Shown: one piece after another, positions 39,812 through 64,000 of the stretch
Position numbering within the stretch: the first letter of the stretch is position 1
Layout: each line of letters begins with the position of its first letter
Assembly (NCBI RefSeq): GCF_002214185.1
Contig: NZ_CP022161.1
Span: 9,369,486-9,433,485, forward strand
Origin: Streptomyces capitiformicae
GTDB taxonomy: Bacteria; Actinomycetota; Actinomycetes; Streptomycetales; Streptomycetaceae
Length of the DNA stretch: 64,000 bases
Direction of reading: 5' to 3'
The notes under the pieces: generated by a model
Seen by the model: only the letters and a program-made list of their open reading frames with translations
Told to the model about the DNA's origin: nothing
Database searches by the model: none
Position numbers and translations under genes: made by a program

Positions 39812-41572
39812 TCATGCGGGTCGGCGGAGCACCATGGTCAGCGCCTCCCGCAGCAGTCGGGTCGCCTCGGTGATGTCGGCGGCGCCGTCCGGCCGGCGCC
39901 AGGCCACGTATCCGTCGGGGCGGACGAGCAGCGCACCCTCCTCGTCGATCTCGGCGCGGCGGCTCCACTCGCCGTACGCGTCGTGCGCGTCGCGGTCGAT
40001 GACGACGGTGCGCAGGTCGAGACCGAGTTCCCGGGCCAGGGTGTCGGCGGCGTCGGCCCACGGGGCTCCGGCCAGGCCGGTGACGATGGAGAACCTGCCC
40101 CTGCCGACCAGGTCGAGCGTCGAGATGCGCCCGCCCCTGTGGTCCACGAGCCAGGCGTGCGGCAGTTTCGCGCCGGGGCGGGAGGTCGGGCGTCCGAAGA
40201 GTTCGTTGTCGCGGGTGATCGTTTCGGCGGTGCCGTCGGGGATGACGGCGGCCGACTTGTAGCGCTGGTTGTGCTCGATGCCGTGGGCGTTGAACTCGTA
40301 GTGCTTCAGTTCGATCGCCTCGCGGATGGCCCGCCGCTTCTTCGCCCCGTCGGCGTCCGGCTGCCGGGCCGCGTGCAGCGCTTTGGTGATGCCCTCCTCG
40401 TCGCCGCCGACGACGCCGAGGGCCTCGAACAGGGGCAGGAACTGGTCCCGGGAGAGGTTGGCGCGTTCGACGATCTGCTGGGCGACGGGGGCTCGTTCGT
40501 CGGAGTAGGTGTCCAGCAGCTCGGGCCCGGCGTGTCCCTTGAGGACGGTCGCCAGCTTCCACGCCAGGTTGTAGGAGTCCTGGACGGAGGTGTTGGAGCC
40601 GAGGCCGTTGGACGGCGGATGCCGGTGGACGGCGTCCCCGGCACAGAAGACGCGGCCGGCGTGGAGCCGGGTGGCGTAGGCGTGGTTGACGGTCCACAGG
40701 GAGGCGCTGTCGATCTGCACGTCGAGTTCGTCGTCACCCACGAGGTCGCGGACGATCGCTGCCGCGGCTTCGTCGGTGAGCGCGGGCGGGGGGTTGTCGA
40801 TGTCGTAGCCCCAGACGATGAGCCACTCGTTCCAGGGTCGGACCATGCGCAGCAGGCCCATGCCGATGCCTCCGACGTCGGCGCCCGGGCGCATGATCCA
40901 GTACAGGACGCTGGGACGGTGTTCGACGTACTGTCCGAGGTCGGCTCTGAAGACGATGTTCATGCTGCCGGCCTTGCCCATCTGCCCCTCCATGGGCAGC
41001 CCCAGCTTCTGCGCGACGATGCTGCGGCCGCCGTCGGCGCCGATCATGTAGCGGGCGCGGACGGTGTGTTCAGTGCCGCTGGGCCGGTCGCGCAGGCGTG
41101 CGGTCACGCCGTGCGCGTCCTGTTCGAAGTCGACGAGTTCTGTGTTGAGCCGGACCACGGCGCCGCGCTTGGCGGCGCCTGCCAGGAGGATGGGCTCCAG
41201 GTAGGTCTGCGGGAGGTCGATCATCTGGCAGGGGCTCTGGGAGGCGTATTCGGTCAGGCTCTCGTCGCCGGTGCCCCAGGTGCGGATGCGGCCGATCTCC
41301 TCGCCCAGGAGTGAGGTGGCGAAGACGGTGTCGCCCATCAGGTGGCTCGGTGTGCCCTTCTCCAGGGCCTCTTGCTCGATGCCGAGGTCGCGGAAGACCT
41401 CCATGGCGCGCTGGTTGGTGATGTGGGCCCGTGGGGTGTCGGCGAGCCATCCGTACTTGGTGACCAGGTGGGTGCGCACACCGTAGGTGGCCAGCAGCAG
41501 GGCGGCGGTTCCGCCGGCGGGTCCGCTGCCGACGACGAGAACATCGGTGTCGTAGCTTTCAGGCGTGCTCAT
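39812..41572 (-). CDS. TfdB/phenol hydroxylase-type FAD monooxygenase
   Basis: A 586-residue group A flavoprotein with the thioredoxin-like C-terminal domain. It has DVLVVGSGPAGGTAALLLAT at residue 10, ARYMIGADGGRSIVAQKLG, and VFCAGDAVHRHPPSNGLGSN. PRAHITNQRAMEVFRDLGIE is typical of 2,4-dichlorophenol 6-monooxygenase and resorcinol hydroxylase-like enzymes. The next gene upstream (45 bp) is a maleylacetate reductase-hydroxyquinol dioxygenase fusion, so the likely product is hydroxyquinol, made from a resorcinol- or phenol-type substrate. Confidence 0.9.
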   Translation of the reverse strand: MSTPESYDTDVLVVGSGPAGGTAALLLATYGVRTHLVTKYGWLADTPRAHITNQRAMEVFRDLGIEQEALEKGTPSHLMGDTVFATSLLGEEIGRIRTWGTGDESLTEYASQSPCQMIDLPQTYLEPILLAGAAKRGAVVRLNTELVDFEQDAHGVTARLRDRPSGTEHTVRARYMIGADGGRSIVAQKLGLPMEGQMGKAGSMNIVFRADLGQYVEHRPSVLYWIMRPGADVGGIGMGLLRMVRPWNEWLIVWGYDIDNPPPALTDEAAAAIVRDLVGDDELDVQIDSASLWTVNHAYATRLHAGRVFCAGDAVHRHPPSNGLGSNTSVQDSYNLAWKLATVLKGHAGPELLDTYSDERAPVAQQIVERANLSRDQFLPLFEALGVVGGDEEGITKALHAARQPDADGAKKRRAIREAIELKHYEFNAHGIEHNQRYKSAAVIPDGTAETITRDNELFGRPTSRPGAKLPHAWLVDHRGGRISTLDLVGRGRFSIVTGLAGAPWADAADTLARELGLDLRTVVIDRDAHDAYGEWSRRAEIDEEGALLVRPDGYVAWRRPDGAADITEATRLLREALTMVLRRPA

Positions 41573-41617
41573 GCTGTCTCCGTGAAGATCTGTGGAAATC
41601 CGTCAGGGGATGGGCGC

Positions 41618-43567
<1,950 letters not shown>

Positions 43568-43636
43568 GAAGCTGCTCTCCGTGCTGCGGGGGTCAGGGGG
43601 TCTGTCGCAGTATTCGAGGCCGTGCACCGGTGTTCC

Positions 43637-43663
43637 TGCACAATCTCGGCATCGCTTTGCACA
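43637..43663. promoter_or_regulatory. Direct TGCACA repeats, likely AraC binding site
   Basis: TGCACA occurs at 43637-43642 and 43658-43663, 21 bp apart, which is two helical turns and puts both on one face of DNA, as AraC-type activators require. A related TGCACC lies at 43623. They sit in the 177-bp region between the divergent fusion gene and the AraC gene. Confidence 0.5.
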
Positions 43664-43744
43664 GAAACGGCGTCGGCCGCCGCCTGGTCCGTGCTTGCCC
43701 GCCCGTACGGAAGGCAGCGAGACTGTGCCGCGAAGGAGGGCCGC

Positions 43745-44650
43745 ATGAGCGAGATGGGACTCGGTGACACCCACGGAATACTGGTTCGGCCAGGGGTGCG
43801 TCCCGTCCGCACGAGTGCGGGTCTGGGCTGGGAGGGGCTGTATGTGTCGACGCAGCGGGAGCTGCCGTACCGGGATGCCTTTCAGGGAGCCGGCAGCCAC
43901 CTGGTGATCCTGCATCTGGACGGGCCCGTCACCGTCCGCAGGGGACGCCGCGGGTTGACGGCCGCGCGGCAGGTGCCGCCCGGCGGTCTGTTCCTGCATC
44001 CGGCCGAGACGGAGCTGGACGTGGAACTCGGCGGTTATCTGAACACCGTGCATGTCTACCTGTCGGACGCGGTCCTCCAAGCGACCGCAGAGGGTGGACG
44101 GCCGGTACGGCTGGAGGAGGAGTTCGGCACCACGGATCCGCTCCTGGAGCAGCTGGTTCTGGCCCTCGACGGTGTTGTACGGCGCTGGGAGCCCAGTGCC
44201 GGCGCCTACGCGGATCAGCTCGCGCTCATGACCGCGGCCCAGCTGGCCCGTCGCCACAGCGTGCGGCTGGGGGCACCCCCGGCCGGAGGCTGGGGGAGGG
44301 TCGGCGAGCGGGCGGGGCGGCAGGTGGGGCTCACCGACCGGCAGTTCGCGGCCGTTCGGGAGCTCATCGACGCCCGGCTTTCCGAGCCGCTGTCGCTGGA
44401 GGACCTCGCCTCGGCCGCGGGTCTCGGCGTCAGCCAGTTCGCCCGGCGTTTCAAGGCCCGCGTCGGGTGCCCTCCCCACCGGTACCTCGTGCGCGTGCGT
44501 GTGGAGCAGGCCGCCCGCCTGCTGCGCGCGGGTTCCATGCCCATCGCGCAGGTTGCGGCGGCGTGCGGCTTCTCCCACCAGGAGCACCTGAGCCGAGTGG
44601 TCCGCGCCCACTTCGGTACGACGCCGGCCGCTCTGCGCCGTGAGGGCTGA
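43745..44650 (+). CDS. AraC/XylS-family regulator of the hydroxyquinol genes
   Basis: A 301-residue protein from an ATG behind GGAGG. The N-terminal cupin-like sensing domain has ELPYRDAFQGAGSHLVILHL, and the C-terminal 100 residues hold two helix-turn-helices (SLEDLASAAGLGVSQFARRF, and MPIAQVAAACGFSHQEHLSR, with HFGTTPAALRREG at the end). The linker VRLGAPPAGGWGRVGERAG is encoded by a palindromic GC repeat. It is divergent from the fusion gene and likely activates it. Confidence 0.9.
   Translation: MSEMGLGDTHGILVRPGVRPVRTSAGLGWEGLYVSTQRELPYRDAFQGAGSHLVILHLDGPVTVRRGRRGLTAARQVPPGGLFLHPAETELDVELGGYLNTVHVYLSDAVLQATAEGGRPVRLEEEFGTTDPLLEQLVLALDGVVRRWEPSAGAYADQLALMTAAQLARRHSVRLGAPPAGGWGRVGERAGRQVGLTDRQFAAVRELIDARLSEPLSLEDLASAAGLGVSQFARRFKARVGCPPHRYLVRVRVEQAARLLRAGSMPIAQVAAACGFSHQEHLSRVVRAHFGTTPAALRREG
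44267..44298. repeat. Palindromic GC repeat in the AraC gene linker
   Basis: CTGGGGGCACCCCCGGCCGG runs on into AGGCTGGGGGAG: a short stem-loop-type repeat of the kind scattered in Streptomyces genomes. It encodes the flexible linker between the two domains, where an insertion is tolerated. Confidence 0.55.
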
Positions 44651-44721
44651 CGGAATCGCTGTGTGAGGCGCGCGGGCCACAGCGGGCTATAGTTCCCCGT
44701 CGTCGAACGAAGGGAGCGACG

Positions 44722-54432: not shown

Positions 54433-55563
54433 TCAGGCAGGTTCCGTCACCAGCGCGGCGATCTGAGCCTGCAAGGCGGGTACGTCGCCCGGGTCCCGGG
54501 CCAGTGTCCAGCGCACGATCTGCCGGGAGGCTTTCACGATGGCCCTGGTCCTGGGCAGTCGGCGCATCGTGAACGACTCCAGCACCTCGTCACTCACCCG
54601 GTCTCTGTTCACCAGTATGTCTGTCAGCACGTGCGCATCCTCCAGGGCCATGGCGGCTCCCTGAGCGAGGGTGGGCGGGCAGGCGTGGGCCGCGTCGCCT
54701 ATGAGGAGCACGCGGCCCTGGTGCCAGGGCCCGTCGAGCAGGTGGGACTCGAACCAGGTGTAGTGGATGGCGGAAGGGTCGGTCAGTGTTTCCCTGATCT
54801 CGTCCCAAGGACCGTGATAGTGCTCGGCGAATCCGCGCACGATGGCGAGCTTTTCCTCCGGGGTCGTCCGCATGCGGTCCTGCGCGATCTCGGTGAAATA
54901 GGCGTACATGGCCCGGTCGTTGATCGGGCAGTAGCCGGAGATGTAAGAGGGTCCGCCGTAGTAGAGCTCGGTGTGGCTGACCGAAGCCGGGCGGGGCACG
55001 ATGACTCGCCACGCGCCAAGGCTCTCCCCCTGGATGTCCGCGTCGATCCCCAGCGCCTGCCGCGTCGCGGAGCGGATCCCGTCGGCGCCGACCACCAGGT
55101 CATAACGTCCGGTCGAGCCGTCGGTGAACTCTACGGTCACTCCCGTGCTGTCCTGCGTGAGGTCGGCGAACGTCGTACCTGTGCGGACCTTCACTCCCAT
55201 CGCCACCACGCGATCCATGAGGATGCGTGCCAGCGCGGGACGGTACATGCCGACGGTGGCGGGCAGGTCCGGCCCACCGGTCCGATCGACGTCGAGCTTG
55301 ACGATGACGCCAGCCGCGGCACCGGCTGCGCGCAGGGCGAGCTGATTGTGCGAGTGCCCCCCGCGTTTCACGTCCTCCCATACTCCGAGCCGCCGCAGCA
55401 CCCTCAGCGCGTTGCCCTGCAGGGTGATACCCGATCCCAGGGCGGTGATGTCGGGTTTGAGTTCGACGAGGTCGACGGCGACGCCCGCCTCGGCGAGCAG
55501 GATCGCGGCGGCGGTACCTGCTGTACCACCTCCCACAACAAGTACGGTGCTGACTGCGGGCAT
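54433..55563 (-). CDS. Group A FAD monooxygenase, cluster C
   Basis: A 376-residue flavoprotein hydroxylase, starting MPAVSTVLVVGGGTAGTAAA behind GGGAG. LVVGADGIRSATRQALG and RVLLIGDAAHACPPTLAQGA are the FAD-binding motifs. It is related to the copies at 29467 and 48450 but clearly more distant. It is the last gene of the leftward cluster C operon and 95 bp after the dioxygenase gene. Confidence 0.9.
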   Translation of the reverse strand: MPAVSTVLVVGGGTAGTAAAILLAEAGVAVDLVELKPDITALGSGITLQGNALRVLRRLGVWEDVKRGGHSHNQLALRAAGAAAGVIVKLDVDRTGGPDLPATVGMYRPALARILMDRVVAMGVKVRTGTTFADLTQDSTGVTVEFTDGSTGRYDLVVGADGIRSATRQALGIDADIQGESLGAWRVIVPRPASVSHTELYYGGPSYISGYCPINDRAMYAYFTEIAQDRMRTTPEEKLAIVRGFAEHYHGPWDEIRETLTDPSAIHYTWFESHLLDGPWHQGRVLLIGDAAHACPPTLAQGAAMALEDAHVLTDILVNRDRVSDEVLESFTMRRLPRTRAIVKASRQIVRWTLARDPGDVPALQAQIAALVTEPA

Positions 55564-55658: not shown

Positions 55659-56585
55659 TCAGGACAGGTAGGGCTTGACCGTCTCGTTGGGCTGGAAGCG
55701 GAACTTGTGTCCCCACATCTCTGGCCGCTTGCCCTTGCGCAGATTGATGAAGTGCGGCGACCTGCGCTCCAGGTCGTCGATGGCCAGGCCGTCCCAGCCG
55801 TACTCGATGAAGAAGCCGGCCGGCGAGTGGATGTAGAAGGACACTGTCTGGTCCCCGATGTGGCGTCCGAGGTTCATCAGCAGGTCGGGGTTCTCGTCCC
55901 CGCCCAGGACGTCGTAGTAGGAGTAACCGACGTCGTCCAGGCTGCGGGATTCCAGGTAGACGTGGTGCAGGCCGAGCGAGTTGGGCACTTCGAGCAGAGC
56001 GACGCTGTGGTGGCGCGGGTTGGCCCGGAGGAACCACATCTGTCCCAGCGGCTCCTTGAGCGTGATGATGTCGCTGGTGAGGAAGCCCATGGCGTCGACG
56101 TAGAAGTCCACCGCCTTGCGGGCGTCGGGCACGGCGAAGACGACGTGGCCAAGGCCCTGGTCGCCGGTGACGAACCCGGCGTGCGGCCGGGGCGGGTCCC
56201 AGTCGCGGTAGCCGGAGTCCTGGTAGCAGTACAGCTCCAGGCGCTGGCCGAAGGGGTCTTCGAAGTGCACCAGCCGGTCCACGCCGCGTGCTTCGGTGGT
56301 CGCCTGGTCGGCGACTTCGGTCTTGACGCCGGCGTTCTCCAGCCGCTTCACGGCGGTGTCCAGGTCGCGGTGGTTCAGGACTTCCCAGCCCGCGTAAGCG
56401 AACCTGTGCTCCGTGCCGGGGTGCACGGAGATCCGGTAATCGGCATCGTCGATCTTGACGCGTACGGCGCCGTCCGCCCCGTCGGGACCGAGCATGCATC
56501 CGAGCACCTTCGGGGCCCAGGTGCGCCACTCCTCGTGGTCGGGGGATTCGACTCCCACGTAACCGAGTTTGGCGATCTCTCCCAT
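55659..56585 (-). CDS. Biphenyl-2,3-diol dioxygenase-like VOC extradiol dioxygenase, cluster C
   Basis: A 308-residue BphC-type protein, starting MGEIAKLGYVGVESPDHEEW. Fe(II) ligands are His in GLGHVVFAVPD, His in GLHHVYLESRS and Glu in GFFIEYGWDG; YDVLGGDENPDLLMNLGRHI lies between them. It is much closer to classical BphC and HsaC enzymes than the copies in clusters A and B, so it may act on a different, bulkier catechol. A 165-bp gap separates it from the reductase gene upstream. Confidence 0.92.
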   Translation of the reverse strand: MGEIAKLGYVGVESPDHEEWRTWAPKVLGCMLGPDGADGAVRVKIDDADYRISVHPGTEHRFAYAGWEVLNHRDLDTAVKRLENAGVKTEVADQATTEARGVDRLVHFEDPFGQRLELYCYQDSGYRDWDPPRPHAGFVTGDQGLGHVVFAVPDARKAVDFYVDAMGFLTSDIITLKEPLGQMWFLRANPRHHSVALLEVPNSLGLHHVYLESRSLDDVGYSYYDVLGGDENPDLLMNLGRHIGDQTVSFYIHSPAGFFIEYGWDGLAIDDLERRSPHFINLRKGKRPEMWGHKFRFQPNETVKPYLS

Positions 56586-56750
56586 CAGGGTTCTCCACTC
56601 CCCGCCTGACGGCGGTGTTGCGCAGGGAATTTGTGTTGACGCGACGTTAGAAGCAAGCGGTAACACCGCGGAAATAGTTGTCCTCTATTGCTGGCATGCG
56701 GGAATTCGAATAGATCGCTGCCCTCACCCGATTCCGGGCCCGTGGGGGCG

Positions 56751-58715: not shown

Positions 58716-59732
58716 CTAGTGACGATGCCGGGGCGGGCGGAAATAAACGCTGTGAATACGAGGTATCGCTGGACCTGTGCCGCGGCCGTCGCGTCTGGGC
58801 ACGTCACAGGGTGCGACCGCCGTCTGTGCATGGGCGACGGCCAGCAGTTGTTCGCGCAGCCAGCGGTGCCCGGGGTCGGCGTCGCGCCTGGAGTGCCAGT
58901 AGGCGGACTGGCGCAGCGGCTGGAGGTCGATGTCGGTCTCAAGCAGGACGATGTCCGCCCCGTCCGCGACCCTGCGCCCGAGGCGTTCCGGGATGATCGC
59001 GATGAGTTCTGTCTCCGCGAGCATGAACGGCATGGCCGTGAAGGTGCTGGCGGTGGCCTCGGTCCGGCGCTGCACCGAGGCTGCGTCCAGATCTTCCTCC
59101 ACCAGACTGTTGCCCCCGGGCGGCTGGTAGGCCAGGTAGGGGTGAGCCGCGAGGAGCTCAGCGGTGAGCCGTTTTTCGGCCCGGGGGTGTTCCTTCCAGA
59201 CGGCGCCGACGAACCGGTCCTCGATCACGGGCATCCGGGAGCAGTCCGCGAGGTCGTCGTCGGCGACGAGCCGGTCGGGCAGGACGGCCAGGTCCATCTC
59301 GTCCCGCTGCAGTGCGGTGAGGTATCGCTCGCTGATCGGCCCGAGATCGAGTCGGAGGTGCGGTGCCAGGCTGGCAAGGGCACTCAGCAACGGTCTGATC
59401 AGCACGACGCCGATGTAGTCACTGGCTGTCATGGCGAACACCCGGCTGTCGCGGGCGGGATCAAAGCCAGGCGGCCTCACGATGGTCTGCTCGATCGTGG
59501 CCAGCACGCTGCGTACCGGCTCAATGAGCGTCTCGGCCCGCGGCGTCAGCTGCATGTGCCGCCCCTGTTTCACGAGCAGCGGGTCACCCAGCACCTTCCT
59601 GAGCCTGGCAAGAGCGGTGCTGGTGGCCGGCTGGGTCATGTGCAGCCTCTCCGCCGCCCGGGTCACGTTCTGCTCACGCAGCAGGGCGTCGAGGACGACG
59701 AGGAGGTTGAGGTCCACTTGGCCGAGCTTCAT
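58716..59732 (-). CDS. LysR-type regulator, cluster C/D
   Basis: A 338-residue LysR protein, starting MKLGQVDLNLLVVLDALLRE. The helix-turn-helix has NVTRAAERLHMTQPATSTAL; the effector domain includes FAMTASDYIGVVLIRPLLSA and FMLAETELIAIIPERLGRRV. The last 20 or so residues (IHSVYFRPPRHRH at the very end) are encoded by DNA that looks like the promoter of the downstream FAH gene, so the reading frame seems to have grown into it. It is divergent from FAH2 of cluster D and in the same direction as the FAH1 gene of cluster C, and may control both. Confidence 0.9.
   Translation of the reverse strand: MKLGQVDLNLLVVLDALLREQNVTRAAERLHMTQPATSTALARLRKVLGDPLLVKQGRHMQLTPRAETLIEPVRSVLATIEQTIVRPPGFDPARDSRVFAMTASDYIGVVLIRPLLSALASLAPHLRLDLGPISERYLTALQRDEMDLAVLPDRLVADDDLADCSRMPVIEDRFVGAVWKEHPRAEKRLTAELLAAHPYLAYQPPGGNSLVEEDLDAASVQRRTEATASTFTAMPFMLAETELIAIIPERLGRRVADGADIVLLETDIDLQPLRQSAYWHSRRDADPGHRWLREQLLAVAHAQTAVAPCDVPRRDGRGTGPAIPRIHSVYFRPPRHRH
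58733..58759 (-). promoter_or_regulatory. Shared regulatory block upstream of FAH1, cluster C
   Basis: On the minus strand the core is TTCACAGCGTTTATTTCCGC followed by CCGCC, ending 47 bp before the FAH1 ATG. It agrees at 20 of 25 positions with the block upstream of FAH2 of cluster D at nearly the same distance. It overlaps the last codons of the LysR gene. Confidence 0.65.
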
Positions 59733-59916: not shown

Positions 59917-60933
59917 ATGCGGTTTGCCCGCCACCGGACGCAGCGGGGCCCACGGCTCGCCGTCCTGGATGCCGAGGACCATCTGGTCGATCTACCCGCG
60001 CACAGTGAGCTGCCGGCCTTGCTCGCCGAGGACGGTCGCCTGGCTGACACGGCAGCCACCGCCCTGCGGACCAGGCTCCGGGTCACCCCCCTGACCACGG
60101 CCGACCTGATGGCCCCGCTGGATCCGCCCACCGTACGGGACTTCTCGATATTCCCCGAACACACCGCCGGCATCGTGAAAACCCTGGATCCGTCCGGGGG
60201 CACCCCCCCGGAGTTCTGGGAGATACCGACGTTCTACTTCTCCCACCCGTACGCGACGATCGGTCCGCACGACGACGTGCCTGTACCTCCCGGGGCGCAG
60301 CGGTTCGACTACGAGCTGGAGGCGGCGGCCGTCGTCGGAGCGGCCGGCAGTGACCTGAGCGTCGAAGAGGCCGCGTCGCACATCGCCGGTTTCGTGGTGC
60401 TGAACGACTTCTCGGCGCGGGACGTGCAGTTCCACGAAATGCGGATGCGGCTCGGTCCGGCCAAGGGCAAGGACACCGCCACGGCGCTCGGCGGCTTCTT
60501 CGTCACCGTCGACGTGCTGCGAGAGCGACGCTCGGGAGCGTCGTTCGACCTGACCATGGAGGTTCGCGTCAACGGCGAGCTCCTCGGCAGCGACCGACTG
60601 GACACCATGGCCTGGAGCTTCGAAGCCCTCGCCGCCTACGCCTCGCGGGGCACGTGGATCCGCCCGGGAGACCTGCTGGGGTCCGGCACCTGCCCAGGCG
60701 GATGCGGCCGAGACGACGAGCTGTCTCAGGCGGGTACGCATGGGGGGCCGCTGCCAGTCGAAGGCGAACGACAGGTCCTGGCGGAGATGTGGGGTCGGCA
60801 CGGTGATGACTTCCACCGGCCCCTTCAGCCGGGTGACACCGTCACCACCAGCGTCGAGTTGCTCGGTGAAACCCGGAACCGCGTCGTCGCCGGCACCAAG
60901 CCCCGCGACCTTCAGCCCTGGAGCCGACCGTGA
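59917..60933 (+). CDS. Fumarylacetoacetate hydrolase family protein (FAH2 type), cluster D
   Basis: A 338-residue FAH protein from an ATG behind AAGGAGG. It matches the shorter FAH2 subgroup: PPTVRDFSIFPEHTAGIVKT, IPTFYFSHPYATIGPHDDVP, FDYELEAAAVVGAAGSDLSV, NDFSARDVQFHEMRMRLGPA. Between GSGTC and LAEMWG it has an extra loop of roughly 22 residues (GGCGRDDELSQAGTHGGPLP) not seen in the other copies. Its stop overlaps the next gene's GTG. Confidence 0.9.
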   Translation: MRFARHRTQRGPRLAVLDAEDHLVDLPAHSELPALLAEDGRLADTAATALRTRLRVTPLTTADLMAPLDPPTVRDFSIFPEHTAGIVKTLDPSGGTPPEFWEIPTFYFSHPYATIGPHDDVPVPPGAQRFDYELEAAAVVGAAGSDLSVEEAASHIAGFVVLNDFSARDVQFHEMRMRLGPAKGKDTATALGGFFVTVDVLRERRSGASFDLTMEVRVNGELLGSDRLDTMAWSFEALAAYASRGTWIRPGDLLGSGTCPGGCGRDDELSQAGTHGGPLPVEGERQVLAEMWGRHGDDFHRPLQPGDTVTTSVELLGETRNRVVAGTKPRDLQPWSRP

Positions 60934-61931
60934 GCACGTTCAAGGTGCTCGTCACCGACCATGCCTGGCCGACGCTGGACGTCGAGACTGGCGTACTCGC
61001 CCCGGTGGACGCCGAACTGATCGTCGCCGAAACCGGTGAGAGCGCGGAACTGATCCGGCTGGCCAAGGACGCCGACGCGATCCTGACCTGCTTCGCGAAG
61101 GTGTCCCGGGAGGTCCTGGACGCCGCGCCGAACTGCCGCACGGTAGCCCGCTACGGCGTGGGCGTGGACAACATCGACGTCGGCCACGCGACACGGCTCG
61201 GCATGATCGTCAGCAACGTCCCGGACTACTGCTCCGAGGAAGTCGCGGACCACACCCTGCTGCTGCTCCTGGCCCTGTCCAGGCGTCTTCTCCCCCTGGC
61301 ACGGCAGATCAGCGGCGGCGAATGGGACGGGAGCGCCGTACCGGCTCCGACGCGGCTGCGGGGCAAGGTTCTCGGCCTGGTCGGCCTGGGCACCATAGGG
61401 CGGGCCCTGATCCCCCGCGCGCAGGCACTCGGCATGGACGTGGTGGCCCTGCGGCGGCGGTCAGGCGGGGTCCCCGATGGCGTGCGCAACGCCTCCTCAC
61501 TGGAGGAGCTGTTGCGTGAGGCTGACGTGGTCTCGCTGCACTGTCCGCTTACCGAGGACACGCGGGGCCTGATCGGTGCCGCCGAACTCGCCGCGATGAA
61601 GCCGACGGCCGTCCTGCTGAACACCGCGCGGGGACCGCTGGTGGACACCCAGGCGCTGGTTTCGGCCCTGGGCCGTGGCGGCATCGCCGGTGCCGGCCTC
61701 GATGTCACCGATCCCGAACCACTGCCCATGGACCATCCGCTGCGCCGCCGCGACAACGTGGTGGTCACCCCGCACGTCGCCTTCTCGTCCGACGGCTCCC
61801 TGGCCGAGCTGGCGAGGAAGGCGGCCACCAACGCGGCCGATGTGCTGCTCGGGCGCACACCCGCGACCGTCGTCAACCCCGCGGTCCTGGACAGTCCCAC
61901 ACTGCGCACGGCCCTGGAGAACCGTTCATGA
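60930..61931 (+). CDS. D-2-hydroxyacid dehydrogenase
   Basis: A 333-residue NAD-dependent 2-hydroxyacid dehydrogenase of the phosphoglycerate dehydrogenase-like branch. It has RYGVGVDNIDV in the substrate domain, the NAD motif GLVGLGTIG at 149-157, the catalytic Arg at 234 (NTARGPLVD), Glu at 263 (DPEPLP) and His at 282 (TPHVAF). It would reduce a 2-oxo acid such as hydroxypyruvate to the D-hydroxy acid, or the reverse. It is coupled on both sides by 4-bp overlaps. Confidence 0.9.
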   Translation: MSTFKVLVTDHAWPTLDVETGVLAPVDAELIVAETGESAELIRLAKDADAILTCFAKVSREVLDAAPNCRTVARYGVGVDNIDVGHATRLGMIVSNVPDYCSEEVADHTLLLLLALSRRLLPLARQISGGEWDGSAVPAPTRLRGKVLGLVGLGTIGRALIPRAQALGMDVVALRRRSGGVPDGVRNASSLEELLREADVVSLHCPLTEDTRGLIGAAELAAMKPTAVLLNTARGPLVDTQALVSALGRGGIAGAGLDVTDPEPLPMDHPLRRRDNVVVTPHVAFSSDGSLAELARKAATNAADVLLGRTPATVVNPAVLDSPTLRTALENRS

Positions 61932-62926
61932 CCGTCCAGAGCACCAGCGCCGAACAAGCGATGGCACTCACCGAACACCTCGTGCGTCGCGGTCTCGCCG
62001 CTGCGGACTCCGCCCTGACCATCCGGCCGCTGACGGGCGGCGTCTCCAACGACGTCTTCGCCGCCACCGGTCCTGGCCTCGATGTCGTGGTCAAACGTGC
62101 CCTGAGTCAGCTGCGCGTGGCCCAGTCGTGGACCGCCGACACGGCGCGTCTGGACACCGAGGGCCGCGCACTGCGCCTGGCCGGTCGTCTCACCCCGACG
62201 TCGGTGCCGCAGGTGCACGATCTGAGCGACGGGTATCTGGTGATCGAGCGTGCGCCCCACAGCTGGCACACCTGGCGGGACGACCTCTTCGCCGGCGCCG
62301 TAAGCCTGTCAGTCGCCGAACGACTGGGCCGTGTGCTCGGCACCTGGCAGCGTACGACCGCCCAGGATCCGCTCTTGGTAGCCGAATTCGCGGACCTGAC
62401 GGTGTTCAGGCAACTGCGCGTAGATCCCTTCCATCAAGCCGTCCGCGAGCGTCATCGAGACCTGGCCGAGCCGATCGACGAGACCGTCGCCGTCATGGCT
62501 GACGCGCGAACTTGCCTGGTGCATGGCGACTACACGCCCAAGAACGTGCTCGCTGACCCCGCCGGGGGCGGCGTGTGGGTGATCGACTGGGAGGTCGCAC
62601 ACGTCGGTGACCCGACCTTCGACCCCGCCTGGGCCATCGGCCACCTGCTGCTCAAGACGCTCAACGAGCCTCGTTACGCAGCGTCGTACGCCGAGGCGGC
62701 ACAGATCTTCCTCCGCACCCTGCTCACCGAGACTCACGCGGTGGTCTCCCTCGACCCCGCCCAGCTCGTTCGGCAGACCGCCTGTGTCGTTCTCGCTCGG
62801 GTCGACGGCAAGAGTCCCGCCGCTTACCTCGACGCGGAGACGCGTGACCGCGCCCGCGCACTTGGCCGCGACCTCCTGCACCACCCGCCTGCACTCGTCA
62901 CCGATGCCTGGGAGTACCTGAAGTGA
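61928..62926 (+). CDS. APH-fold small-molecule kinase
   Basis: A 332-residue protein of the aminoglycoside phosphotransferase/choline kinase superfamily, starting MTVQSTSAEQAMALTEHLVR. It has the nucleotide loop LTGGVSNDVFAATGPGLDVV with the following VVK lysine, the catalytic HGDYTPKNVLAD and the metal-binding VIDWEVAHVGDPTFDPAW. The substrate is not set by the sequence. Its place between a 2-hydroxyacid dehydrogenase and an enolase, with 4-bp overlaps, suggests it phosphorylates a hydroxy acid rather than an antibiotic. Confidence 0.85.
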   Translation: MTVQSTSAEQAMALTEHLVRRGLAAADSALTIRPLTGGVSNDVFAATGPGLDVVVKRALSQLRVAQSWTADTARLDTEGRALRLAGRLTPTSVPQVHDLSDGYLVIERAPHSWHTWRDDLFAGAVSLSVAERLGRVLGTWQRTTAQDPLLVAEFADLTVFRQLRVDPFHQAVRERHRDLAEPIDETVAVMADARTCLVHGDYTPKNVLADPAGGGVWVIDWEVAHVGDPTFDPAWAIGHLLLKTLNEPRYAASYAEAAQIFLRTLLTETHAVVSLDPAQLVRQTACVVLARVDGKSPAAYLDAETRDRARALGRDLLHHPPALVTDAWEYLK

Positions 62927-64000
62927 ACGACACCCTCATCACCTGCTTGTTCGCCTGGGAGGCACTCGACTCCCGCGGCAAGCCCACTGTCGGATGCGAA
63001 GTCGCCCTGGCGGGCGGCGGCCGAGGCACAACGACGGTGCCCTCGGGTGCCTCCACCGGCCGGCATGAGGCCAGGGAACTCCGTGACGGCGACGCCCGCT
63101 ACGGCGGCAACGGCGTCAGCCGCGCCGTGGCGAACGTGACCGGCGAGATCGCCGACGCCGTACGCGGTCTGGACGCCACCGACCAACGGCAACTCGACAC
63201 CACCCTGCGCACCCTGGACGGAACCGCCGACCTCGGGCGTCTGGGCTCCAACGCGGTTCTGGCCGTGTCCGTGGCGGCGGCACGTGCAGCCGCCGATGCC
63301 CGGCGCGTCTCGCTGTACGAGGCCATCGCCGAACCCGGCACCACTCCCCTGCTCCCGCTGCCGATGATCAACATCATTTCGGGTGGCGCGCATGCGGGGC
63401 GTGCTCTCGACGTGCAAGATTTCCTCGCCGTGCCCCTGGGAGCGACTGCCTTCGCGCAGGCCATCTCCTGGGCTTCCCGCGTGCGAGCCGGCACTGCGGA
63501 CATCCTGGCCGAACGGGGCCTTCCCGTTGCCCTCGTCGCCGACGAGGGGGGCCTGGGTCCCGTCCTGCCCAGCAACCGTACGGCGCTGGACATGCTTGTC
63601 CAGGGCATCGAACGGGCTGGACTACGTCCCGGCGACGACGTCGGCATCGCCATCGACATCGCGGCCACCCAGTTCCAGCAAGAGGACGGCTCCTACCGGC
63701 TCGCCGCGGAGGATCGCGAGCTGACCTCGGCCGCGCTGGTGGAAGAGCTGGCCGACTGGTGTGCCGGTTACCCGATCGTCTCCTTGGAGGACGCCCTGGC
63801 CGAGGACGACTGGGACGGGTGGTCACTGGCGAGCAGGCGGCTCGCGGGACGGCAACTGCTGGGGGACGACCTCTTCGTCACCGACCTGGACCGACTCGGC
63901 CGCGGCATCAACCAGGGGGTCGCGAACGCCGTGCTGGTCAAGCCGAACCAGACCGGCACGCTGGACGCCGCCCGCACCGTCGTCCGCAGCGCACACGCCG
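62923..64000 (+). CDS. Divergent enolase paralogue, partial at window end
   Basis: From a GTG overlapping the kinase stop the frame runs off the window after 359 residues, about 70 short of a normal enolase. Enolase motifs in order are ALDSRGKPTVGCEV, PSGASTGRHEA (active-site loop), GGAHAGR with the catalytic His near 157, DEGG at 208-211, AIDIAATQF, SLEDALAEDDWDGW, LGDDLFVTD and VLVKPNQTGTL with the catalytic Lys near 340. The usual QEFM is VQDFL, so a conserved active-site Glu is Asp (about 166). Genes for housekeeping enolase are not found in such operons, so this is probably a specialised copy. Confidence 0.88.
   Translation, partial: MNDTLITCLFAWEALDSRGKPTVGCEVALAGGGRGTTTVPSGASTGRHEARELRDGDARYGGNGVSRAVANVTGEIADAVRGLDATDQRQLDTTLRTLDGTADLGRLGSNAVLAVSVAAARAAADARRVSLYEAIAEPGTTPLLPLPMINIISGGAHAGRALDVQDFLAVPLGATAFAQAISWASRVRAGTADILAERGLPVALVADEGGLGPVLPSNRTALDMLVQGIERAGLRPGDDVGIAIDIAATQFQQEDGSYRLAAEDRELTSAALVEELADWCAGYPIVSLEDALAEDDWDGWSLASRRLAGRQLLGDDLFVTDLDRLGRGINQGVANAVLVKPNQTGTLDAARTVVRSAHA

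Follow-up and report, generated by a model that had tools for sequence, protein, structure and literature searches.

What reaction would call for a second enolase that is coupled, through overlapping reading frames, to a kinase of the APH fold? The question is raised by an operon at the end of a 64,000-nucleotide stretch of the Streptomyces capitiformicae genome (hereafter the window; positions 9369486-9433485 of a single 10.99 Mb contig), in which an FAH-family hydrolase, a D-2-hydroxyacid dehydrogenase (DH), an APH-fold small-molecule kinase (KIN) and an enolase paralogue (ENO2) follow one another. We found that the conserved core of this operon is the KIN-ENO2 pair and not the set of four genes, and that, judged from sequence comparisons, the pair is a dedicated module with a changed enolase active site. 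An initial annotation of this DNA had described the four genes as joined by four-base overlaps, and the coordinates and Pfam matches agree with it:

59917..60933, + strand: FAH-family hydrolase, first gene of the operon, 338 aa; PF01557, 157.5 bits
60930..61931, + strand: D-2-hydroxyacid dehydrogenase (DH), 333 aa, GTG start; PF02826, 194.5 bits, and PF00389
61928..62926, + strand: APH-fold small-molecule kinase (KIN), 332 aa, ATG start; PF01636, 69.5 bits
62923..64000, + strand, continuing 221 bases beyond the window: enolase paralogue (ENO2), GTG start; PF00113 and PF03952; TIGR01060, 477 bits

The FAH/DH, DH/KIN and KIN/ENO2 junctions are all four-base stop/start overlaps (two GTGA, one ATGA), and AGGAGG stands, by eye, immediately 5' of the FAH ATG at 59917. 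In the genome, full-length ENO2 has 432 aa, its last base corresponding to window position 64221 (L004:409-1707). The four-gene FAH-DH-KIN-ENO2 observation is confirmed, and the operon is not a product of chance, because this order and the KIN-ENO2 adjacency recur across the scanned loci. These loci came from a scan with a 34-sequence kinase alignment in one genome per species, from which the best 80 of at least 575 confirmed relatives were kept; the contents of these 80 kinase loci were determined by tblastn with the window proteins.

By fold and score, ENO2 belongs with the enolases: both enolase domains are present, and its TIGR01060 score compares with a cut-off of 300. It departs from the canonical enolase at two residues (numbered as in yeast enolase unless E. 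coli is stated): Glu168 is Asp, and His373 is Ala. Among the ENO2 proteins from the 80 loci, residue 168 is Asp in 70/70, and residue 373 is Ala in 68 of the 69 that are readable and Gly in one. An alignment of 116 enolases comprised 84 Asp/Ala proteins, two Asp/Gly (L068, L141), 28 Glu/His, one with a disturbed site (L121) and one that is cut off (L095). Other active-site residues are kept: H159, K345, K396, R374, S375 and the three Mg(I) ligands in 86/86 altered copies, including the window protein; S39, which is the second Ser of the PSGAST loop, in 85/85 readable altered copies (one has a gap); and E211 in 85/86, with Lys in L141. In the enolase structure paper PMC4450660, K345 is given as the base, E211 as the general acid that aids hydroxide departure and S39 as a Mg(II) ligand. 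Further positions separate the two groups (E. coli numbering): N155 is replaced by S/G, G207 by A and T394 by V/I, of which the G207 and T394 changes, both nearly fixed, lie next to the general acid and to K396. In its motif, the altered His is followed immediately by the Arg-Ser pair. By its residues ENO2 is not a canonical enolase, yet it probably works like one. The initial annotation had called the enolase divergent; the paralogue stands, whereas the alteration of Glu168 and His373, which makes plain 2-phosphoglycerate uncertain as the ENO2 substrate, had been missed. The other PF00113 enolase of the window genome (7890496-7891338, minus strand) lies elsewhere and has Glu168/His373; since the genome holds this enolase, we rejected the view of ENO2 as a misplaced housekeeping copy.

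An important feature of the comparison is that control enolases were defined by the absence of a KIN neighbour (27 loci, L109-L135), since a grouping by residue 373 would be circular. These 27 controls consist of 26 Glu/His enolases and the disturbed L121, which was excluded from both residue groups; contig ends truncate L095 and L099, of which L099 was not extracted. In a FastTree tree, the 28 Glu/His enolases fell into one split with support of 1.0, and L121 was on the other side; with midpoint rooting, the altered group was not recovered as a rooted clade. The far-diverged Asp/Gly enolase-like protein of L141 (Enterobacter plasmid NZ_CP097174.1, 7214-10901) has as neighbors a KIN-like kinase and a U32-type protein, the latter 30% identical over 283 aa to the U32 protein beside KIN-ENO2 in a freshwater-type actinobacterium (L064); this plasmid segment looks like a biosynthetic cluster.

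Glu168 and His373, we assume, face the C3 hydroxyl of the substrate. A possible reading is that KIN and ENO2 act on an acid substituted at C3 or O3 (e.g., 3-O-methylglycerate, a tetronate or another 3-substituted lactate), from which ENO2 would expel an alcohol or another group, or form a 3-substituted phosphoenolpyruvate (PEP). Sulfonate and methoxyl were also considered as leaving groups. The Glu-to-Asp and His-to-Ala changes would make room, and the near-fixed replacements beside the general acid and K396 are consistent with this. PMC4922564 lists E168, together with E211, K345 and K396, as catalytic in yeast enolase; the E168 counterpart Glu165 binds 2-phosphoglycerate in the C. aurantiacus structure, where the substrate contacts given are Glu165, Glu206, Lys338, Arg367 and Ser368 (PMC4450660). 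The changed His comes directly before this substrate-binding Arg-Ser pair. The dedication of the paralogue to KIN and the recurrence of a zinc alcohol dehydrogenase (Zn-ADH) in aromatic clusters, both described below, also favor a substituted acid, whereas the two Zn-ADHs that were tested scored under the cut-off of every methanol- or formaldehyde-specific model, and no gene specific to methanol or formaldehyde was seen in the sugar operons that were looked at. A more far-reaching proposal, which we put forward tentatively, is that the Asp168/Ala373 enolases would be a separate family that does not act on 2-phosphoglycerate and that, together with the APH kinase, eliminates a C3/O3 substituent to give PEP or a 3-substituted PEP; the group lost would be an alcohol or, with a larger sugar acid, water.

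How closely is the altered enolase tied to the kinase? Among 8000 scored candidates, 1105 KIN homologues were found at E 0.001 or better. ENO2 was matched in 71 of the 80 loci and lies next to KIN in 70; there is no match in nine, and in L071 it is ~9 kb from KIN. KIN and ENO2 are on the same strand in all 70 loci from which both frames were extracted. The initial annotation had made its pathway depend on recurrence of the gene set in other genomes, and the complete order FAH-DH-KIN-ENO2 is indeed present in 7/80 loci (L026, L027, L036, L038, L040, L041, L045), with contiguous DH-KIN-ENO2 or KIN-ENO2-DH in 21/80. Its view of the four genes as the unit holds for the order but not for conservation: DH was matched in 24/80 loci and an FAH-family cluster in 35/80, and four-gene conservation as such was dropped, given seven loci with the full order versus 70 with the pair.

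According to record titles, the paired loci belong to Actinomycetota, Acidobacteriota, Chloroflexota, Bacillota and Bacteroidota, and to Haloferacaceae (haloarchaea). A plasmid search with KIN yielded 30 records, including Rhizobium, Rhodococcus, Haladaptatus, Cupriavidus and Sphingobium, and adds Pseudomonadota. Fourteen of these records were examined, two of them unannotated; an Asp/Ala enolase was found in 13, adjoining KIN in ten and ~5 kb off in three from Rhizobium, and the 14th is L141. At the genus level, KIN homologues at E 1e-20 occur in 19/295 genomes, at 21 loci including the window. Within a range of 1.5 kb, five of these 21 loci have an Asp/Ala enolase, 15 have DH and no ENO2, and L010 has a partial ENO2 with Asp168; when three of the 15 were extended (L198-L200), an Asp/Ala enolase appeared 6-7 kb away in 3/3. 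The extension of L010 (L201, in the same-genus genome G292) contains two Asp/Ala enolases ~2 kb apart near one KIN. The multi-phylum spread, together with the sugar-acid operons described below, rules out a purely Streptomyces or aromatic-only feature.

Searching 13 genomes with KIN loci for PF00113 revealed in each a single Asp/Ala enolase together with one or more Glu/His enolases, the former next to KIN in 12/13 (the exception is Actinopolymorpha rutila). Nine further genomes, in which no enolase lies beside KIN, have a Glu/His enolase in 9/9 cases and an Asp/Ala enolase in seven, among them the L071 genome. Pooling both sets, the altered enolase is located elsewhere in 8/10 genomes that lack adjacency, and a Glu/His enolase is present in 22/22 checked module genomes. 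The distance matrices of KIN and ENO2 are correlated (Mantel r 0.84, 0/999 permutations as high, 84 pairs, with L071, L095 and L141 left out), and shared species history contributes to this value. When 396 genomes of the phylum were searched with an altered-enolase profile, ordinary enolases ranked as well; among the best 30 loci, which were fetched, three are altered, including the window, and all three have KIN adjacent. Additional enolases were seen in two genomes: the haloarchaeon of L098 has a third one (L162) with Glu at both 168 and 373, besides its Glu/His and Asp/Ala copies, and the Flammeovirga genome has a second Glu/His enolase.

The kinase itself was examined in the same way. Kinases of the APH fold share an ATP-site Lys and Glu, the HxDxxxxN motif and a metal-site Asp. 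KIN has these superfamily motifs, and K56, E78, H199, D201, N206, D220 and E222 are invariant in 84/84 homologues, and an ARVDGKSP-like motif contributes three more such residues, R291, G294 and S296; the same R, G and S are also found in ten kinases without an adjacent enolase. The only Pfam match at E 0.001 is PF01636, and KIN lies outside the glycerate kinase families of classes I, II and III in Pfam. Classes I and II (MOFRL) transfer phosphate from ATP to O2 of glycerate and feed enolase, as proposed here for KIN; all three classes differ from it in that the APH model is the one Pfam match of KIN. Profile comparison with solved structures gave weak matches, the nearest being 2pyw (uncharacterised, E 1e-11) and 2olc (methylthioribose kinase, E 5e-11). 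The automatic names of these proteins, aminoglycoside phosphotransferase and methylthioribose kinase, would fit a resistance or methylthioribose kinase whose linkage to an enolase is incidental, or a non-catalytic ENO2; we consider this very improbable, given the linkage in 70/80 loci, the conservation of catalytic residues in both proteins, the catabolic context and a score of 53 bits versus a cut-off of 275 on the nearest NCBIfam model, that of methylthioribose kinase (TIGR01767). Aminoglycoside resistance, for which the automatic names are the sole support, and methylthioribose salvage, with its score far under the cut-off, were rejected.

The window FAH, DH and KIN each score below every NCBIfam cut-off. 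On NF053535 (2,4-didehydro-3-deoxy-L-rhamnonate hydrolase, cut-off 500), the window FAH reaches 80 bits and a second FAH of the window 173. The best NCBIfam scores of DH, both under the cut-off, are 232 bits for phosphoglycerate dehydrogenase and 230 for glyoxylate reductase. DH is a member of the D-2-hydroxyacid dehydrogenases by its two Pfam domains and by its R-E-H residues, which we take to be the catalytic triad of that family; the triad is present in 24/25 aligned sequences, and L039 is without the His. An Asp at the end of strand beta-2 is NAD-specific, whereas Arg-rich residues fit NADPH. The window DH is Arg-rich there instead of having Asp, which would fit NADPH and reduction; Asp is found in 6/25 aligned relatives, so that a preference for NADPH is not general. 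The enzyme families assigned in the initial annotation are thus borne out, including their catalytic residues in KIN and DH.

On balance, we favor a role for KIN and ENO2 as a phosphorylate-then-eliminate module that would give PEP or an analogue from a glycerate-like acid. The 2-hydroxy acid would be supplied upstream by DH, FAH or an aldehyde dehydrogenase, differing by lineage. In the window operon, DH would reduce a 2-oxo acid (hydroxypyruvate or a 3-substituted pyruvate); in the sugar operons, FAH would hydrolyse a 2,4-dioxo-3-deoxy sugar acid and release the hydroxy acid, which in a hexonate route would be glycerate. KIN would transfer phosphate from ATP to the 2-hydroxyl of the glycerate-like acid, and ENO2 would take the C2 proton and expel the C3 substituent, yielding PEP or a close analogue, which in rhizobia would be consumed by PEP carboxylase. 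Through the module, the fragment that aromatic or sugar-acid breakdown yields besides pyruvate would enter central metabolism at PEP. The order proposed in the initial annotation (hydrolase or reductase, kinase, enolase) is plausible from the families and residues, and it is from these that we infer it, along with the substrate and the product; the pathway interpretation as a whole is partly supported. Cleavage of 2,4-diketo-3-deoxy sugar acids by FAH-family enzymes, with pyruvate and a hydroxy acid as products, is described (PMC13406643), and the role of FAH in the module is not fixed because FAH enzymes can also be dehydratases (PMC9795676).

The gene contexts of relatives indicate where the acid may come from. 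In Cohnella (L103), the order is FAH - Zn-ADH - KIN - ENO2 - galactonate dehydratase - Zn-ADH (the first Zn-ADH by clustering only), and the galactonate dehydratase scores 676 bits on NF010624 versus a cut-off of 311. In Roseibium and Paracoccus, LacI stands next to the row KIN - ENO2 - FAH - SDR - sugar ABC transporter - SDR, where SDR is a short-chain dehydrogenase/reductase. Haloarchaea have mandelate-racemase-type dehydratases and SDRs nearby, joined in Halomarina by a galactonate dehydratase and a CtBP-type dehydrogenase. Around the pair in freshwater-type actinobacteria lie MR_MLE or IlvD dehydratases, SDRs, aldehyde dehydrogenase and FAH. Flammeovirga (L104) and Persicobacter show the minimal context aldehyde dehydrogenase-KIN-ENO2, and Halalkalibacter (L089) has a GhrB-like dehydrogenase (below the cut-off), GntR, KIN and ENO2. 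On plasmids of Haladaptatus (L137) and Halomarina (L147), an ilvC-annotated homologue of ketol-acid reductoisomerase lies near KIN-ENO2 (with KARI_N and KARI_C in L137); no other branched-chain amino-acid gene is annotated in these two stretches, and the homologue might be a hydroxy-acid reductase.

Several of these contexts can deliver glycerate or an analogue: the GhrB-like reductase of L089, the aldehyde dehydrogenase of L104, FAH with galactonate dehydratase in L103, and the FAH-SDR-transporter sets of Roseibium and Paracoccus. They suit a plausible alternative, to which we give rather less than even weight, that the substrate is plain D-glycerate: DH would make it from hydroxypyruvate, KIN would represent an APH-fold glycerate 2-kinase, the fourth class of such enzymes, and ENO2 would be an extra enolase for 2-phospho-D-glycerate. 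The neighboring PEP carboxylase in rhizobia is consistent with this, and so is the existence of three published glycerate kinase classes that share no common origin, none of them described as APH-fold in the part of that paper used here (PMC2063504). The alternative has to account for the replacement of E168 and H373 throughout the subfamily and across phyla, and for the Glu/His enolase in every checked module genome, which makes a second one unnecessary. Opposite stereochemistry, with FAH releasing L-glycerate from L-sugar acids and ENO2 handling 2-phospho-L-glycerate, would agree with the FAH neighbors of L103 and L064, which score best, under the cut-off, on the 2,4-didehydro-3-deoxy-L-rhamnonate hydrolase model; it appears improbable, as DH belongs to a D-specific family, Cohnella carries a D-galactonate dehydratase and the base K345 remains on the side where enolases normally have it. 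The readings with plain D-glycerate and with a C3- or O3-substituted acid stand nearly level, and that with L-glycerate is behind them.

A second type of context is aromatic. Alongside DH, KIN and ENO2, genes for an HpaD-like dioxygenase, a cupin and a Zn-ADH are found repeatedly in Rhizobium, Sphingobium and other Streptomyces. Compared with its Rhizobium counterpart, the Zn-ADH of two Streptomyces, of Sphingobium and of Rhodococcus shows 69-78% identity (loci compared: L198, L199, L136, L140, L142), the sequences being partial at stretch ends in three of the four; this identity suggests that the aromatic cluster was transferred between lineages, and the substrate of the recurring Zn-ADH might reveal which aromatic compound is involved. 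Three Rhizobium plasmids carry the genes as LysR - ppc - DH - KIN, with ENO2 ~5 kb off on the opposite strand. The outlet at PEP that the initial annotation had proposed gains support from this PEP carboxylase gene preceding DH-KIN. Its link to aromatic catabolism applies to the window copy, which lies in an aromatic region, but not to the several copies in sugar-acid operons.

Returning to the phosphorylate-then-eliminate module, several observations weigh against it. In 14/85 altered copies, Ala replaces the first Ser of the PSGAST loop (as it does in 11 of the 18 copies from plasmids and other Streptomyces, all of which are Asp/Ala). The hosts already have a Glu/His enolase, and a second enolase for plain 2-phosphoglycerate would be redundant. 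Two KIN-bearing metagenome-assembled genomes, which may be incomplete, showed no altered enolase in the PF00113 search. In the three rhizobial stretches, neither the annotation nor tblastn showed an FAH, and DH is missing from most of the distant loci; since DH and FAH are each missing from some loci, no single upstream reaction is universal.

The genes on the other side of the operon in the window are divergent from it and are as follows:

58716..59732, - strand: LysR-type regulator, divergent from the operon; PF00126 and PF03466
57712..58686, - strand: second FAH-family hydrolase, in the divergent aromatic gene group; PF01557, 211 bits
56751..57779, - strand: ferredoxin/flavin reductase subunit of aromatic oxygenase type; PF00111, best NCBIfam model BenC, 63.5 bits, below the cut-off
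55659..56666, - strand: extradiol ring-cleavage dioxygenase (VOC fold), BphC/HsaC-like; TIGR03213, 253 bits, under the cut-off of 366
54433..55560 (approximate start, the open frame being longer), - strand: FAD-dependent aromatic hydroxylase-like protein; PF01494, 127 bits for 54433-55500

The LysR-type protein is a probable regulator of the operon, and its gene is in the same divergent position in several relatives. A homologue of the second FAH is directly behind ENO2 in Frankia, Blastococcus and others. Downstream (3') of ENO2, the genome has DoxX, another LysR, a LigB-type dioxygenase and another FAH. From this divergent and downstream gene content, we place the window copy in an aromatic-catabolism region. 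Farther away in the window, a single frame of 1019 aa (41618-44680, minus strand) combines an iron alcohol dehydrogenase, presumably of the maleylacetate reductase type, with an intradiol dioxygenase, and adjoins an aromatic hydroxylase at 39812-41572; the region 39812-44680 is perhaps a hydroxyquinol/resorcinol-type cluster with a fused gene.

Besides the glycerate kinases, three known systems resemble the module in part. The serine cycle has a segment of hydroxypyruvate reductase, glycerate 2-kinase, enolase and PEP carboxylase, and the rhizobial PPC-DH-KIN genes with ENO2 follow the same logic; the rhizobial set differs in having another kinase family, an enolase variant and an HpaD-like dioxygenase alongside. 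Pathways through 2,4-diketo-3-deoxy sugar acids (L-rhamnonate, L-fuconate) likewise use dehydrogenases, a dehydratase and FAH to give pyruvate and a hydroxy acid; the L-fuconate pathway is described as ending at lactate and pyruvate (PMC13406643), whereas here a kinase and an enolase come after. Enolase (EC 4.2.1.11) shares with ENO2 both domains, a TIGR01060 score above the cut-off, the base, the general acid, the metal sites and the phosphate ligands; ENO2 is distinguished by Asp168 and Ala373 (Gly in two copies), by its presence beside a Glu/His enolase and by its linkage to a kinase. We found no description of the KIN-ENO2 pair in the open-access literature; subscription papers were outside the scope of this search, and absence is not proven.

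Enolase is commonly regarded as a glycolytic enzyme with a single function, and these paralogues are entered in databases as phosphopyruvate hydratase. A widespread altered subfamily with a dedicated kinase would mean either that glycerate 2-kinases have a fourth class, served by an enolase of its own, or that a new lyase reaction exists. Both outcomes would fill the ends of several sugar-acid and aromatic pathways that now stop at an unassigned kinase and a spare enolase. If the substrate is indeed substituted, this would be a new phosphorylation-driven lyase chemistry common to aromatic and sugar-acid catabolism, in bacteria and archaea.

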